Assembly: GCA_030753015.1 (NCBI GenBank)
Contig: JASMDC010000039.1
Location: 1-33,742, forward strand
Length of the DNA: 33,742 nucleotides
Reading direction: 5' to 3'
DNA from: Candidatus Undinarchaeales archaeon
GTDB taxonomy: Archaea > SpSt-1190 > JASMDC01
The notes below the pieces were generated by a model that saw only the letters and a program-made list of their open reading frames with translations, was not told the origin of the DNA and did no database searches. Shown piece after piece: positions 7,755-27,194 of this stretch (the stretch's first letter is position 1; each line of letters starts with the position of its first letter). The position numbers were made by a program, and so were the translations under genes.

Positions 7755-9818
7755 CTACACCCTCGGCTTGTTGCAGTGAGGGCATACTGCCAGGCTCGCA
7801 TGTATCTGTTGTCCACAGTGCGGGCAGGGGACGGTCGCAGCCACTACATCGGTAGGTGCGGGGCCGGACGGGATGAAATCCTGTGCGGTCCTGCGTGTGT
7901 AGCCGAACTGCTGCTGGCGATAGTACTGTCCCGACTGCCCCCACCCCGGTGCCTGAGCCCATTGCTGTTGTTGTTGGGGGTACTGGTATGCGTGAGGTGC
8001 CTGTGCTGCAGGAGCTTGCGCAGGTGGGGCGGGTACCTGAACGGGTTCTGGCGCTGTTCCGGGAGGCGCGACCGGAGGTTGTGCTGGAGCCTGCGCGGGA
8101 GCGGGCGCCTGATAGGAGGGTGCCCCGGGCTGCTGATAGGGTGAGGCCGCTGCGGGAGGAGTCATGGCACCACCCGAGGGCACTGCGAAAATCTGGTCAT
8201 CTGTGCGGCTCTTGGAGGCATCCACGGCGCTCTGGAGGTCCTTGGGGGACGGTTTCGCCGCGAGCTGGGGAGGCGTGATGGCGATAGGCGGTGCCTCGAC
8301 TCGGAATTCATTTCTCGTGTCGGCGAACGCCTCTTCCGGGAAGAACGTGTCCTCGGGCGGTGGCCCACCACGCCGCATGAAGATGACGAGTATACCCACG
8401 AGCAGGATGAGCCCTGCAGCTCCAGCGAGTATCATCGTGTCATCGACGGGGATGCCAAGGCCCGGGATCACGAATCCCGTCGGGGTAGGTTCGGGCGTCG
8501 GCTCCGGTGTCGCCTCGGGCGTCGGTTCCGACGTTGGTTCGGGTGTCGCCTCGGGAGTGGGCTCCGGCGTCGGCGCCAGTTCGGCGTCGGTCTTCCACGC
8601 ACCATTAACACATGCACCCCCTGTCGCGTTCCAACTGTCCGCGCCCTCGGTCCAGCAGCATCGGTCGTCATGCCAGCTCCCCTTCAGGCACTCGCATGCT
8701 TCCTGGGTAGCATTGGCCTTCGTGCAGCCGCTACAGTCGAACGTACACGTCCCACCACTGCAGGCCTGGCACTCGCCGCAGGCGTCCTCGGTCCATGAGC
8801 CGCCCTCGCACCGGCCAGCTGTCCCGCACCAGCCATCGTCCGGACCGCAGCATCGCTCCTCGGTCCACGCGCCGCCCTGGCAGGTAGTACAGAGGTGCTC
8901 GTCCGCTTGGGAGGTCCATGTCCCATCTGAGCAGTAACCCGTGGTCCCGCACCACGCCTCGTCGGGATCGTCACCACAGCACTGGCCCCCCTCCCACTTG
9001 AGGTCCTGGCAAGTGCAGCTCGTCTCATCGGTGTCAGGATCCGTGGCGACATCGTAGCAGGCGCCGTCGATGCAGCAGCCGGTCCGACACTGGTCGTTGG
9101 ATGTGCATGGCCCGCAGTCACTACCGGCCTGGACAGGCTCCCAAGTCGAACAGGTCCACCCTGCGCACGCGTCGTACCCGCTCTTCCCGGGGAAGTCCTG
9201 GGATGTGCAGTTCCAGATCTCGCACAGGCCGTCGCCCCAGGTCGCGCACTCCCAGGTCGCGCAGCTCTCGTAACTGGTGAGGACGGTCACGCACTCCCAG
9301 TCCGTGCACACGCCCTTGGCCGATGCACGGCAAACGAACGACTTGCACCCCTCTCGCCCGCTCACTAGCGGAGGGATGGCGTTCTCTGTGCAGTCCCACA
9401 AACCGCACACGTCCTTTGTTGTGTCCGTGCACGCGTACCGTGTGCAGCTCTCCCGGTCGTTACCGGCAGGAATATCGATCGAGCTGCAGTCCCAAGAGAT
9501 GCACAGTCCACGGTCCCATGCGGTGCATATGTTCTCGTCACAGCTCTGGTCGCTGATCACGGGATCTGTGGCGTTGCAGCTCCAACTCGAACACTGGCCG
9601 CCCTTGAAGTCGTTACAATTCCATACATCGCATGTCTCCTTCCCGCTACCTAATGGAGGGAGCATGATGTCGGAGCAGTCCCAATGAGCGCAGGTCTCCG
9701 ACGAGCACGGGAGCACGCCAGAGAGAGGGCCGACGGGCAGGTCGTTGTCACCGAACTTTGCCAATCCGAACACGAGGACGACGATGCCCAGGACGGCCAA
9801 GAATCGTGCTCCTCTCAC
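7755..9818 (-). CDS. Cys-rich single-pass surface protein with CxxWxC repeats and cytosolic zinc ribbon
   Basis: The 687-residue protein begins at GTG 9818, with no nearby ATG. Its parts in order: an N-terminal hydrophobic signal or anchor (residues 5-20); an outside region, about 40-230, with eleven C-x2-[W/Y/F]-x-C motifs (CAHWDC, CDVWNC, CISWDC and so on); a second Cys region with CCGxDDxWCGTxGxC-type units; a Thr/Pro/Glu stalk (TPEPTPEATPEP); one membrane helix at about 460-480 ending in MRRGG; and a long Pro/Gln/Ala-rich tail, presumed cytosolic. The tail ends in a zinc ribbon (C665, C668, C679, C682). I do not recognise the family. A surface role with intracellular coupling is inferred. 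The box at 9841-9849 lies about 27 bases before GTG, suggesting a leaderless transcript. Confidence 0.85.
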   Translation of the reverse strand: MRGARFLAVLGIVVLVFGLAKFGDNDLPVGPLSGVLPCSSETCAHWDCSDIMLPPLGSGKETCDVWNCNDFKGGQCSSWSCNATDPVISDQSCDENICTAWDRGLCISWDCSSIDIPAGNDRESCTRYACTDTTKDVCGLWDCTENAIPPLVSGREGCKSFVCRASAKGVCTDWECVTVLTSYESCATWECATWGDGLCEIWNCTSQDFPGKSGYDACAGWTCSTWEPVQAGSDCGPCTSNDQCRTGCCIDGACYDVATDPDTDETSCTCQDLKWEGGQCCGDDPDEAWCGTTGYCSDGTWTSQADEHLCTTCQGGAWTEERCCGPDDGWCGTAGRCEGGSWTEDACGECQACSGGTCTFDCSGCTKANATQEACECLKGSWHDDRCCWTEGADSWNATGGACVNGAWKTDAELAPTPEPTPEATPEPTSEPTPEATPEPTPEPTPTGFVIPGLGIPVDDTMILAGAAGLILLVGILVIFMRRGGPPPEDTFFPEEAFADTRNEFRVEAPPIAITPPQLAAKPSPKDLQSAVDASKSRTDDQIFAVPSGGAMTPPAAASPYQQPGAPSYQAPAPAQAPAQPPVAPPGTAPEPVQVPAPPAQAPAAQAPHAYQYPQQQQQWAQAPGWGQSGQYYRQQQFGYTRRTAQDFIPSGPAPTDVVAATVPCPHCGQQIHASLAVCPHCNKPRV
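8480..8580 (-). repeat. TPEPTPEA stalk repeats
   Basis: Short, imperfect, GC-rich direct repeats code a Thr-Pro-Glu stalk between the Cys-rich ectodomain and the membrane helix. Such stalks are common on archaeal surface proteins and are often O-glycosylated. Confidence 0.7.
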
Positions 9819-23363: not shown

Positions 23364-23948
23364 GTGGATGTGGAAGAACGCTCCCGGGCCATTCGCTTCG
23401 CTATCGGGAAGACCCGTAACGATCTTAAGAAAGTAGTGGCCGAGCGCGGTCGGCTCGTGCTACATCCCGGGGACATGGAGCGGTCTGCAGCCTGCGTCCA
23501 GTGCGGTCTGTGCGTTGGGTCGTGCCCCTCCGGACGGTGGACGGCACTGAACATCCGTCGCATCATCCGCGCTATTCAGCTCGGCGTGGGCGATCCCACT
23601 CATGATCCCGCGCTGTGGGAATGCACGACCTGCTACGCCTGCCAGGAGCGATGTCCTCGTGAGGTCCCCACCTGCGAGCTCGTTCGGGCACTGCGCAACC
23701 ATGCGTTCGCCAGGGGGCTCGTCGACGATGAGCACGTCGCGGTAGCCCGCACTGTGGTGCGCACAGGTCACACCATCGAACTTGGGGATGAGGGCCGAGA
23801 GAAGCGCGTGTCGCTCGGTCTGCCCGAGGTGCCCCCCACCGTCCTCGCCGACCCCGCTGCCCTCGAAGAGGTACGAATGCTCCTGAGCCGCGTTGGATTC
23901 TCACAGCTTATACATGATGCGTTCGAGACGAAGGAGGGCGATAGTTGA
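23364..23948 (+). CDS. hdrC: heterodisulfide reductase subunit C-like protein
   Basis: HdrC carries two [4Fe-4S] clusters that pass electrons between HdrA and HdrB. The 194-residue protein shows both ligand sets, C44-x2-C47-x2-C50-x3-C54-P and C87-x2-C90-x2-C93-x3-C97-P, in the normal positions. Two GTG starts are possible: 23364 (MDVEERSR) and 23370. The box A at 23341-23349 would put transcription near 23371, favouring the second as leaderless; 23364 is kept as the longer form. Its stop overlaps the TTG start of hdrB by 4 bases. In methanogens the complex reduces CoM-S-S-CoB. In other archaea the disulfide substrate is unknown. Confidence 0.92.
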   Translation: MDVEERSRAIRFAIGKTRNDLKKVVAERGRLVLHPGDMERSAACVQCGLCVGSCPSGRWTALNIRRIIRAIQLGVGDPTHDPALWECTTCYACQERCPREVPTCELVRALRNHAFARGLVDDEHVAVARTVVRTGHTIELGDEGREKRVSLGLPEVPPTVLADPAALEEVRMLLSRVGFSQLIHDAFETKEGDS

Positions 23949-24817
23949 AACCTCTGGCCCTCTTCCTCGGCTGCATCGCACCCATTCGCATGCCGGGCAT
24001 CGTATCGTCCACACGACTCGTGCTCGACCACTTCGATGTGCCATGGACGGAGATGAAGGGGGCCTCATGCTGCCCCGCCCCGGGAGTGGTCGGCTCGTTC
24101 GACCTCACCACATGGCTCACGTTAGCTGCCCGGAACATCACCCTGGCCGAGGAACTGAAGGCCGACATCACCACGGTGTGCAACGGATGTTACGGCACGC
24201 TGCAGGAGTCCTCCGCCATCCTCGCCGACGAGAATGTGCGGTACGAGGTCAACGAGCGGCTCGAAGAGATAGGGAGGGAGGTCCGCGGAACAGCGCGCGT
24301 GTACCATCTGGTGGAAACATTGCATGATGCAGTGGGCCCGGAGCGCATCACGAAGGCGTCCTCTGGCCTCGAGGGGCTCAAGGTTGCTGTCCATCACGGA
24401 TGTCACTTCCTAAGACCGCGACGGACCAGGGACCATGGGTCAAGCGAGCGACCGAACATACTAACCGACATCGTCAGCGCCTGTGGCGCCCAGCCCGTGG
24501 CATGGTCCGAGGCCCATACGTGTTGCGGTGCGGGCGGCGGTGTACGCGCGGGGCGGCCGAGTACGGCGCTGCGCATCACCGCGACCAAGCTGCGTTCCGC
24601 CCATGAGGCCGGTGCCGACGTCATCGTCAATCCCTGTTCGTTCTGCCACCTCCAGCTCGTTCGGGGACAGGAGGAGCTGCAGGAGTCGCATGGCCTCGAC
24701 ATCTCCGTCCCGGTGCTCCACGTGGCCCAGCTCGTCGGCCTCGCCATCGGGCTCGACCGCAGCCGCCTTGGGATTGAGGGGCCACCGCTCCCCAAGGGGG
24801 TGCCGAAGCGTGAGTGA
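23945..24817 (+). CDS. hdrB: heterodisulfide reductase subunit B-like protein
   Basis: HdrB is the catalytic subunit, whose two CCG domains each bind an unusual non-cubane [4Fe-4S] cluster that cleaves a disulfide. The 290-residue protein starts at TTG 23945, overlapping hdrC (TTGA). Both CX(31-39)CCX(35-36)CXXC motifs are intact: C10, C42-C43, C79, C82 (31 and 35 residues between) and C153, C193-C194, C231, C234 (39 and 36). FLGCIAPIRMPG and NPCSFCHLQL are close to the family. All cluster ligands are kept, so disulfide reduction is plausible. The substrate cannot be read because no methanogenesis genes are present in the window. Confidence 0.94.
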   Translation: MKPLALFLGCIAPIRMPGIVSSTRLVLDHFDVPWTEMKGASCCPAPGVVGSFDLTTWLTLAARNITLAEELKADITTVCNGCYGTLQESSAILADENVRYEVNERLEEIGREVRGTARVYHLVETLHDAVGPERITKASSGLEGLKVAVHHGCHFLRPRRTRDHGSSERPNILTDIVSACGAQPVAWSEAHTCCGAGGGVRAGRPSTALRITATKLRSAHEAGADVIVNPCSFCHLQLVRGQEELQESHGLDISVPVLHVAQLVGLAIGLDRSRLGIEGPPLPKGVPKRE

Positions 24818-27194
24818 TGGACCACCTAAGCGAATTGGCGTGTGGACATGCCGTTGCGGCGGGAACATCGGCGATGTCGTGGACGCGGTCGGTGTAGCGA
24901 AGGAGGCCGCGGGATGGTCGGACGTCGCTAGTGGGCTGTGCAAGGAATACCTGTGCTCGCCCGATGCCCAGGACGAGATCGCACGGGCCATCGAGGAGGG
25001 CGAGGTGGACAGGGTGGTCCTGGCCTGTTGCTCACCACGTCTCCATGGTGCGACCTTCCGGCGTCGGTTCGGTGAAGCAGGGCTCGATCCGTCTCACGTG
25101 GCCATCGCCAACATTCGCGAACAGGGCTCTTGGGCTCATAAGGAGGATCCTGAGGGGGCCACAGCGGCCGCCCGCGACACTATCCATGCTGCCGTCGAAG
25201 GCGTCCGAGAAGCGACGCTACGCGCACGCACGCCCATCACGGTAACTCAGGAGGTGCTTGTCGTGGGTGGTGGTGTGGCAGGCATCACGGCAGCCCTCAG
25301 GTTGGCACGAGCAGGGACTCGTGTTGTACTCGTTGAACGCGAGCCCTCATTGGGCGGCCACCTCTCCCGCTACCCGAAGGTATTCCCCACCCTCGACTGC
25401 TCACAGTGCATCCTCACCCCCCTCATGGCAGAGGTACGTGACGAGGAGAACGTCCGAGTGCTCGCCCCTGCTGAAGTGATAGGTGTGGAAGGGGGTCCGG
25501 GTTCCTACAACATTCGTATCCGGGAACGGTCCCGGTTCGTTGATCCCGAGCGCTGCGTTCGCTGCGGCCGCTGTGCAGATGTATGCCCAGTAGAGGTGCC
25601 AGACCCACGCCAGGAAGGGCTCGGATCACGTAAAGCAGCCTACCTCCCTTTCCTCCAGGCGGTTCCCACGACCTACCTCATCGACGGCGAGGCGTGCACG
25701 AAGTGCGGCGCGTGTGTCGAGGCATGCCCCGGCGGTGCCGTCGACCTCACCCTCGGCGACAGTGTACATGAGCTCGAGATCGGTGCGGTCGTCCTCGCCA
25801 GCGGTTACGACCTGTACGATCTCAACGACTATGGTGAATGGCTCGTGGGCGACCACCCGAACGTCGTGGGGCCTATCGCCGTGGAGCGCATGTTGGACAT
25901 CGAGGGCCCAACAGCGGGCCGTCTCGTCCGCCCCTCCGATCGAGGGGCAATCAAGCGAGTTGTCTACGTGCTCTGCGCCGGCTCCCGTGACACGAACAAG
26001 GGTAAACCATACTGTTCGGGAGTATGTTGCATGTACGCCATAAAGGAGGCACGGGTCATCCGCTCGGCCTTCCCCGGGACCGAGGTGTGGGTGTTGTACA
26101 CCGATGTGCGAGCTCCCGGGAAACGGTACGAGGAGTTCTACCGCACCGCCCAGGAAGAGGGCGTGATCTTCGTACGGGGGAAACCCGGTCAGGTCATCGA
26201 TATCGGCGACCGTCTGATGGTGCGTGTGGAGGACACCAGCGAGGCCCTGCCCATGGAAGTGGAAGCGGACCTGGTGGTCCTATGCCCGCCTTTGGTACCC
26301 CATCCCTCGGCCGCTCCTGTCGCGGCCTCCCTTGGTGTCCCGCTCGATGAACACGGCTTCGTGCTCGAGCGTCATCCCAAGCTAGATCCAGTGCGCACGG
26401 GGCGCGAGGGTGTCATGGCATGCGGAGCTGCTATCGGACCCATGGACGTCCAGAGCTCAGTTGCGACCGCCGAGGCCGCTGCTGCCAGGGCGCGGGCGTT
26501 CCTGGACGGTGAGGCCGAACCCATCGCAGGGACCGCTTTCCTATCCCGTCCCGAAGCGTGTGACGGATGCGGTGCGTGCGTCGAGGTATGCTCGTGGCGC
26601 GCCCTCGCTCTGACGGACGGAAGAGTGGTTGTGGAGGAGCCCATGTGCACCGCATGTGGCGCCTGCGTACCTGCGTGCCCGACACTGGCCCTCGACCTCG
26701 CCGGACTGGACGAAGAGGTCCTCCTGGCCCGCATCCGTGGTATGCTGACCATCCCGGTCGACGGTCCGCGTCTGTTGGTGTTTGTCGAATCGAGCGCTGC
26801 TGCGGTAGCCCTCGATAATATTGGCGCCAGCAGAATGGACTACCCCGCGGGCATACGCGTCATCGAGGTCGCCAGCACCGCCCGCATCGGGCTGCATCAT
26901 GTGATGTCCGCGTTCGCTGCAGGTGCAGACGGAGTCGCTCTCATCGAGGGGCCGCCCGAGGGGCCGTTGGGAGCGGTCCATGAGATAGCTGAGTCACGGG
27001 CACACGAGATGGAGCCCAAACTGGAAGAGTCCGGCCTCGATCCGCATCTTCGTTTCTCTTTCCGAACAGTGTACGTGCCCGAACGTCGGAAACTCGCAAG
27101 GTTGCTTTCGACTCTCTACGGCTTGGTTGAGGACGCCGGTCCGCTGGACGGACCGGCCCGCGAACGAGTCGCCAGAGCAGCGAGTACGCTCTAG
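24810..27194 (+). CDS. hdrA: HdrA fused to a cysteine-less MvhD-like domain
   Basis: HdrA is the FAD-carrying, electron-bifurcating hub of heterodisulfide reductases. The frame extends to 24483 inside hdrB, but GTG 24810 (8-base overlap) gives MSDGPPKRIGVWTCRCGGNIG, the expected HdrA start: 794 residues against about 650 for plain HdrA. Seen: N-terminal Cys motifs (C14, C16, C44, C49, C73-C74); NIREQGSW with Gly106 where Cys is usual; FAD motif VVGGGVAGITAAL at 151-163; FPTLDCSQCILTP; ferredoxin motifs from C249 and C296; and a second pair from C584 and C613. Residues about 652-775 align by eye with MvhD (YPAGIRVIEV, AFAAGADGVALIEG) but contain no cysteine, so its [2Fe-2S] cluster cannot form. 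HdrA-MvhD fusions are known in Methanosarcina; the cysteine loss is the odd part. Confidence 0.93.
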   Translation: MSDGPPKRIGVWTCRCGGNIGDVVDAVGVAKEAAGWSDVASGLCKEYLCSPDAQDEIARAIEEGEVDRVVLACCSPRLHGATFRRRFGEAGLDPSHVAIANIREQGSWAHKEDPEGATAAARDTIHAAVEGVREATLRARTPITVTQEVLVVGGGVAGITAALRLARAGTRVVLVEREPSLGGHLSRYPKVFPTLDCSQCILTPLMAEVRDEENVRVLAPAEVIGVEGGPGSYNIRIRERSRFVDPERCVRCGRCADVCPVEVPDPRQEGLGSRKAAYLPFLQAVPTTYLIDGEACTKCGACVEACPGGAVDLTLGDSVHELEIGAVVLASGYDLYDLNDYGEWLVGDHPNVVGPIAVERMLDIEGPTAGRLVRPSDRGAIKRVVYVLCAGSRDTNKGKPYCSGVCCMYAIKEARVIRSAFPGTEVWVLYTDVRAPGKRYEEFYRTAQEEGVIFVRGKPGQVIDIGDRLMVRVEDTSEALPMEVEADLVVLCPPLVPHPSAAPVAASLGVPLDEHGFVLERHPKLDPVRTGREGVMACGAAIGPMDVQSSVATAEAAAARARAFLDGEAEPIAGTAFLSRPEACDGCGACVEVCSWRALALTDGRVVVEEPMCTACGACVPACPTLALDLAGLDEEVLLARIRGMLTIPVDGPRLLVFVESSAAAVALDNIGASRMDYPAGIRVIEVASTARIGLHHVMSAFAAGADGVALIEGPPEGPLGAVHEIAESRAHEMEPKLEESGLDPHLRFSFRTVYVPERRKLARLLSTLYGLVEDAGPLDGPARERVARAASTL

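Follow-up and report, generated by a model that had tools for sequence, protein, structure and literature searches.

A cysteine-less MvhD domain fused to HdrA in an archaeal hdrCBA cluster, a state shared with methanogen HdrA1-type proteins

The hdrCBA genes and the tail of HdrA

The window, i.e. the whole stretch of 33,742 nucleotides under analysis, contains three overlapping genes, hdrC, hdrB and hdrA, all encoded on the forward strand (Table 1). HdrC matches 4Fe-4S dicluster models, and HdrB, in which two CCG cysteine-rich domains are found with motifs that are intact by eye, scores 343.1 bits against TIGR03288, slightly below the cut-off of 345.15. HdrA comprises an N-terminal 4Fe-4S domain, an FAD/thioredoxin-reductase domain with an inserted ferredoxin domain, a C-terminal ferredoxin domain and an MvhD tail. 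Its core retains 26 of the 26 Fe-S cysteines surveyed, together with Glu358 and Lys411 of the FAD site. The complex had been described in an earlier note as active-looking, with intact HdrB ligands, and the cysteines kept in HdrB, HdrC and the HdrA core would agree with this description as far as sequence can tell. Around the cluster lie genes for aminotransferases, a DUF2148 protein and a TrmB-type regulator, and none of these neighbours is an evident redox partner. Elsewhere in the window (7755-9818, reverse strand) a big cysteine-rich, repeat-like protein is encoded, for which no Pfam match was obtained at E 1e-5; it has a membrane segment, contains the stretch TPEPTPE and carries a motif resembling a zinc ribbon at its C-terminus.

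Table 1. Positions of the hdr genes, the HdrA tail and selected HdrA residues in the window
Feature	Position	Strand	Details
hdrC	23364..23948	+	194 aa, 4Fe-4S dicluster subunit; TIGR03290 163.7 bits, cut-off 160
hdrB	23945..24817	+	290 aa; Pfam CCG 113.7 bits, 2 stretches
hdrA	24810..27194	+	794 aa, GTG start
Glu358 of HdrA (FAD-site Glu356)	25884..25886	+	alignment to 5odc_A, survey
Lys411 of HdrA (FAD-site Lys409)	26043..26045	+	alignment to 5odc_A, survey; kept
FlpD/MvhD domain fused to HdrA	26775..27128	+	PF02662 66.4 bits; 0/5 cysteines
MvhD CxxC pair site, Glu659...Ala662	26787..26798	+	alignment
MvhD C-S/T-G-R Cys site, Ser688	26874..26876	+	alignment
MvhD GC(H)xxxC pair sites, Gly713 and Pro718	26949..26966	+	alignment

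When the last ~150 residues of HdrA are analysed alone, a single Pfam family is matched, PF02662 (FlpD/MvhD, E 3e-18), the match covering residues 655-771 at 64-66 bits (cut-off 22.3). When the tail is aligned to MvhD domains that have their cysteines, Glu, Ala, Ser, Gly and Pro are found in the five cysteine columns, and cysteine is absent from its other positions too. The frame, coordinates and motifs given in the earlier note are correct, VESS, ASTAR and PPEGPLG being the stretches aligned at the cysteine sites, and the loss of all MvhD [2Fe-2S] cysteines that it had put forward is borne out by the alignment (0/5). Because these cysteines are absent, the tail is, by its sequence, unable to carry the MvhD [2Fe-2S] cluster. 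The identification of the tail as MvhD also holds at the level of remote homology, as a profile of Cys-less tails finds the solved MvhD chains (5odc_D, E 2e-18), and the predicted fold is in agreement, albeit at low confidence. Using AlphaFold with alignments two rows deep (the window protein and L077), a tail model with a pLDDT of 58.5 was obtained, the full-length model (pLDDT 45.5) being of no use. A Foldseek search of the PDB with this low-confidence tail model returned MvhD as all four best hits (E 1.8e-4 to 1.4e-3, prob 1.00), and its VIA-align comparison with MvhD yielded Z values of 7.1-7.4, which are below 8 and not decisive by themselves.

Distribution, conservation and ancestry of the cysteine-less tail

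A profile made from three tails, those of the window HdrA and of two methanogen proteins, was used to search 394 archaeal genomes, and a wider profile was used later. Strong matches correspond to HdrA proteins of ~770-790 aa in families f29 and f79, as well as in the archaeon G334, and had none of the five cysteines when read; in the class of G078 a strong match denotes E below 1e-30, and the genome tallies count by E-value, the cysteines having been read in those proteins that were fetched. Strong matches were obtained for 49 of 237 genomes in this class, G078 itself being a genome that groups with Methanohalophilus (L077). The genus g274, of Methanosarcina type, is nearly uniform in this respect (28/30), and most of its genomes with a strong match also carry a second, lower-scoring domain, which in G534 belongs to a Cys-containing fusion of the HdrA2 type (L161). 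The Cys-less gene of G534 is located at about 3.885 Mb in the order hdrA-C-B, a locus consistent with hdrA1C1B1 of M. acetivorans (MA3126-MA3128). HdrA1 has been described in a review as being without the MvhD-homologous extension of HdrA2 (PMC6019823); this is contradicted by the Pfam FlpD match in the tail of the G534 HdrA1 (59 bits). A strong match is also found for 108 of 149 genomes in the class of G236, where the Cys-less tail is carried by a second HdrA. The G236 protein passes model NF041891 "hdrA_Methbact" (1402 bits, cut-off 1300) and is encoded near coenzyme M biosynthesis genes, for which reasons G236 is probably a member of the Methanobacteriaceae. The Cys-less form is also present in G440, which appears to be ANME-2d-like, and in G334, an unrelated archaeon; a scan of named genome contigs gave a single locus, in Methanohalophilus euhalobius.

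The methanogen Cys-less proteins pass NF041778 or NF041891, both of which are named "ferredoxin:CoB-CoM heterodisulfide reductase HdrA", and a Cys-less FlpD tail is in fact the state of the members passing these cut-offs. The loss of the cysteines can thus no longer be regarded as a novelty of the window gene, since the same state is general in HdrA1-type proteins. The Cys-less tails furthermore carry new shared motifs, DNIGxS, ExP and YxP. Outside the methanogens, the HdrA of G334 (L158:4340-6679) stands alone, hdrB and hdrC not being recognised in its 13 kb contig, and its neighbours by eye are an ADP-forming acetyl-CoA synthetase and a molybdopterin oxidoreductase. Among 28 genomes of the G334 phylum no second Cys-less form was found above E 1e-20, the other two matches being a Cys-containing fusion (G105) and a stand-alone domain (G085).

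Cysteine loss is all-or-none: 43 of the fused tails that were read have none of the five, the rest have four or five, and there are no intermediates. The core Fe-S cysteines are kept in the surveyed Cys-less HdrA wherever the fragment covers the sites. In six tails (L119, L095, L096, L097, L092 and L059) the second cysteine of CxxC is replaced by Ser or Asp and the other four are kept; since this position varies in otherwise intact tails, the ligands of the MvhD cluster are probably the other four cysteines. The rate of change of the tail in the Methanosarcina-type proteins is about as low as that of the core (median dN/dS 0.10 versus 0.09, 78 pairs); the tail is therefore under purifying selection and not decaying.

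The trees were built separately for core and domain. In the tree of 70 HdrA cores, from which the tail was left out, the Cys-less rows need two changes, one for a methanogen clade (SH-aLRT 100) and one for the pair formed by the window protein and G334 (97), a pair which joins two long branches. A single clade of all 25 Cys-less rows was not recovered, yet it is not rejected either (AU p 0.36). In the tree of the MvhD domain the Cys-less rows form one side of one branch with a support of 98, part of which comes from the Cys columns, as the value drops to 72 when these and their neighbours are removed. One ancient loss of the cysteines would be the simplest reading of these results.

The window genome, the FAD site and known Hdr systems

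The assembly to which the window belongs (G000) is rated 98.9% complete, with a contamination estimate of 5%. Neither McrA nor a NiFe-hydrogenase large subunit was found in a search of this genome, which speaks against methanogenesis in the window organism and against a hydrogenase as the partner of the window Hdr. There is one Cys-less HdrA gene, and the genome also has a Cys-containing HdrA-MvhD fusion (L002/L010) on contig C84. By eye, this fusion (L075, C84:61500-81400) stands amid Wood-Ljungdahl-type genes, with formylmethanofuran dehydrogenase, methenyl-H4MPT cyclohydrolase, F420-dependent methylene-H4MPT dehydrogenase and CODH/ACS-type genes as neighbours, in a genome without detectable Mcr. 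Contig C62 (L076, 74500-94400) holds a large Hdr cluster with a 1027-aa double HdrA, HdrB, HdrC, a stand-alone Cys-containing MvhD (189.9 bits) and an FrhB-like gene, and near it a molybdopterin oxidoreductase with 4Fe-4S and membrane subunits. Two FrhB-like genes occur in the genome, both on contigs other than that of the window. At 3.85 Mb the genome is much larger than those of its nine class-mates (0.6-1.1 Mb), none of which has an HdrA match: this may mean that the lineage is unusual in its large genomes or that its classification is odd.

Mapping of the Methanothermococcus HdrA (5ODC_A) onto the window protein places Glu356 at Glu358 and Lys409 at Lys411, two residues that have been proposed as marks of bifurcating HdrA (PMC12054007). 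The lysine is kept in 43/43 Cys-less proteins; the glutamate is replaced by Ala, Gly or Ser in 41 of them, being kept only in the window protein and in G334. Two G031 HdrA proteins without a fused tail (L038 and L058) are also without this glutamate, and with exceptions in both directions a tight coupling between loss of the cysteines and loss of Glu356 is not claimed. Given the retained Glu/Lys pair, bifurcation is possible in the window HdrA.

The window HdrA falls below the cut-off of each of the full-length models: it obtains its best score with the HdrA2 model NF040770 (717.8 bits, cut-off 1100), followed by NF041891 (640.8 bits, cut-off 1300) and NF041778 (594.2 bits, cut-off 1400), and the best NCBIfam score of the tail is with NF041891 (59.6 bits). 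With the Methanosarcina HdrA1 (NF041778) it shares the domain order, the Cys-less FlpD/MvhD tail with its common motifs and the complete set of HdrA Fe-S cysteines, but the gene order there is A-C-B instead of C-B-A, and Glu356 is lost. The second HdrA of Methanobacteriales-type genomes (NF041891) has the Cys-less tail and also the hdrC-hdrB-hdrA order; it too has lost Glu356, however, and in G236 it lies beside coenzyme M biosynthesis genes, whereas no Mcr was detected in the window genome. A fusion of MvhD to HdrA in a protein of about 790 aa is likewise found in HdrA2 of Methanosarcina acetivorans (NF040770, type Ia HdrA), in which one Fe2S2 cluster has been assigned to the MvhD part (PMC5296606), but tails of the HdrA2 type keep the five cysteines that the window tail has lost. 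Finally, the HdrABC-MvhD structures (5ODC, 7BKB, 8RVU) align with the HdrA core over residues 6-649 and contain an MvhD homologous to the window tail, which is there a separate subunit whose [2Fe-2S] cluster feeds the FAD. A statement that HdrA1 has a Cys-less MvhD domain was not found in the open-access papers surveyed. The window protein, a variant new here, adds a non-methanogen form to a class that is known but has been poorly recognised.

Role of the tail and route of the electrons

In the solved Hdr complexes, the bifurcating FAD is presumed to receive its electrons from the [2Fe-2S] cluster of MvhD/ElpC, the last station on the way to it, within a mobile arm that also includes the N- and C-terminal domains of HdrA (PMC12350162). 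The reading that we prefer, and to which we would give an even chance, is that the window protein is an HdrA1-like HdrA with a structurally retained MvhD tail, exchanging electrons with ferredoxin via its [4Fe-4S] domains and receiving none from hydrogenase, formate or F420. The whole [2Fe-2S] site would have been lost from a domain kept as structure, and the MvhD body would probably cap the C-terminal ferredoxin domain and hold the geometry of the donor arm, while neither a hydrogenase, a formate dehydrogenase nor an F420 module could feed the FAD through such a tail. Ferredoxin would probably give electrons at the [4Fe-4S] domains of HdrA (or take them, in the reverse direction), which would then reach the disulfide site of HdrB by way of the FAD and HdrC, so that methanogen HdrA1 would be no more than a ferredoxin:heterodisulfide reductase. 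In the organism of the window, where Mcr was not detected, the substrate would be a disulfide of some kind. The ferredoxin route in HdrA1 is suggested by genetics and annotation: deletion of hdrA1C1B1 in M. acetivorans has been read as a lowered redox cycling of ferredoxin (PMC9963511), and the literature surveyed holds no purified HdrA1 complex. Counting against an HdrA1-like reading of the window protein are its scores below both HdrA1 cut-offs, HdrA2 as its best full-length model and the kept Glu356. More tentatively, and at somewhat less than even confidence, we propose that a class of HdrA, made up of methanogen HdrA1 and scattered non-methanogens, swapped the MvhD entry for a redox-dead body and became a two-site ferredoxin:disulfide reductase, the window lineage having kept a bifurcation-competent FAD site and acting on some disulfide without methanogenesis.

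The earlier note had offered a choice between another route of electron entry, for which ferredoxin would be the simplest donor, and the conversion of the domain into a docking surface, for which a co-occurring partner is missing. A tail acting as the docking site of a new redox partner (FrhB/FdhB-like, a polyferredoxin or other) that feeds the clusters of HdrA itself would fit with the strong purifying selection on the domain, with its new common motifs and with the two FrhB-like genes of the window genome; we nevertheless hold it to be unlikely, as no obvious redox partner gene flanks the window hdrCBA or the HdrA1 operons inspected, and the FrhB-like gene on C62 adjoins the Cys-containing MvhD and an HdrABC set of its own. 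That same MvhD might in principle dock in trans and supply the missing cluster, being complete, but the fused tail is expected to fill the place of MvhD and the C62 protein has HdrA, HdrB, HdrC and FrhB-like neighbours of its own, which makes such an arrangement very improbable. An enzyme with three substrates, bifurcating or confurcating between ferredoxin, F420 or another mid-potential carrier and a disulfide, would act directly at the FAD and need no MvhD cluster. The analogy with HdrA2 has led to a proposal of F420 coupling in HdrA1B1C1 (PMC6019823), no F420 site is known in HdrA2 although it uses F420H2 (PMC12054007), and the window protein keeps the Glu and Lys concerned; however, the glutamate, the proposed mark of bifurcation, is lost in nearly all Cys-less proteins, methanogen HdrA1 included, and we consider this scheme rather doubtful.

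Isolated decay, in the window genome alone, of what was once a functional HdrA2-type fusion is hardly credible. It would account for a single such gene standing alongside a Cys-containing fusion and a stand-alone MvhD, and for the finding of no Cys-less relative in the class of the window organism (0/9 class-mates with a match), but the loss is common to several methanogen groups, the domain tree sets the Cys-less tails apart by a single split, and the window hdrA has an open frame and an intact core. Decay was rejected on the grounds that the loss is shared and that the Methanosarcina-type tail is under purifying selection. Neither a fold other than that of MvhD nor Cys-containing versions in all close relatives, the two contrary outcomes named in the earlier note, was found, the low-confidence model being MvhD-like and the cysteine loss both shared and conserved.

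To return to the preferred reading, a cluster-less tail with ferredoxin exchange at the [4Fe-4S] domains: only physiological arguments have so far been brought forward on the electron supply of HdrA1B1C1, and the presence in HdrA1 of a conserved MvhD domain without its cluster would explain why a hydrogenase-type feeding module is not needed. It would also set HdrA1 mechanistically apart from HdrA2. For genome annotation, it follows that counts of FlpD domains overestimate electron entry of the MvhD type.
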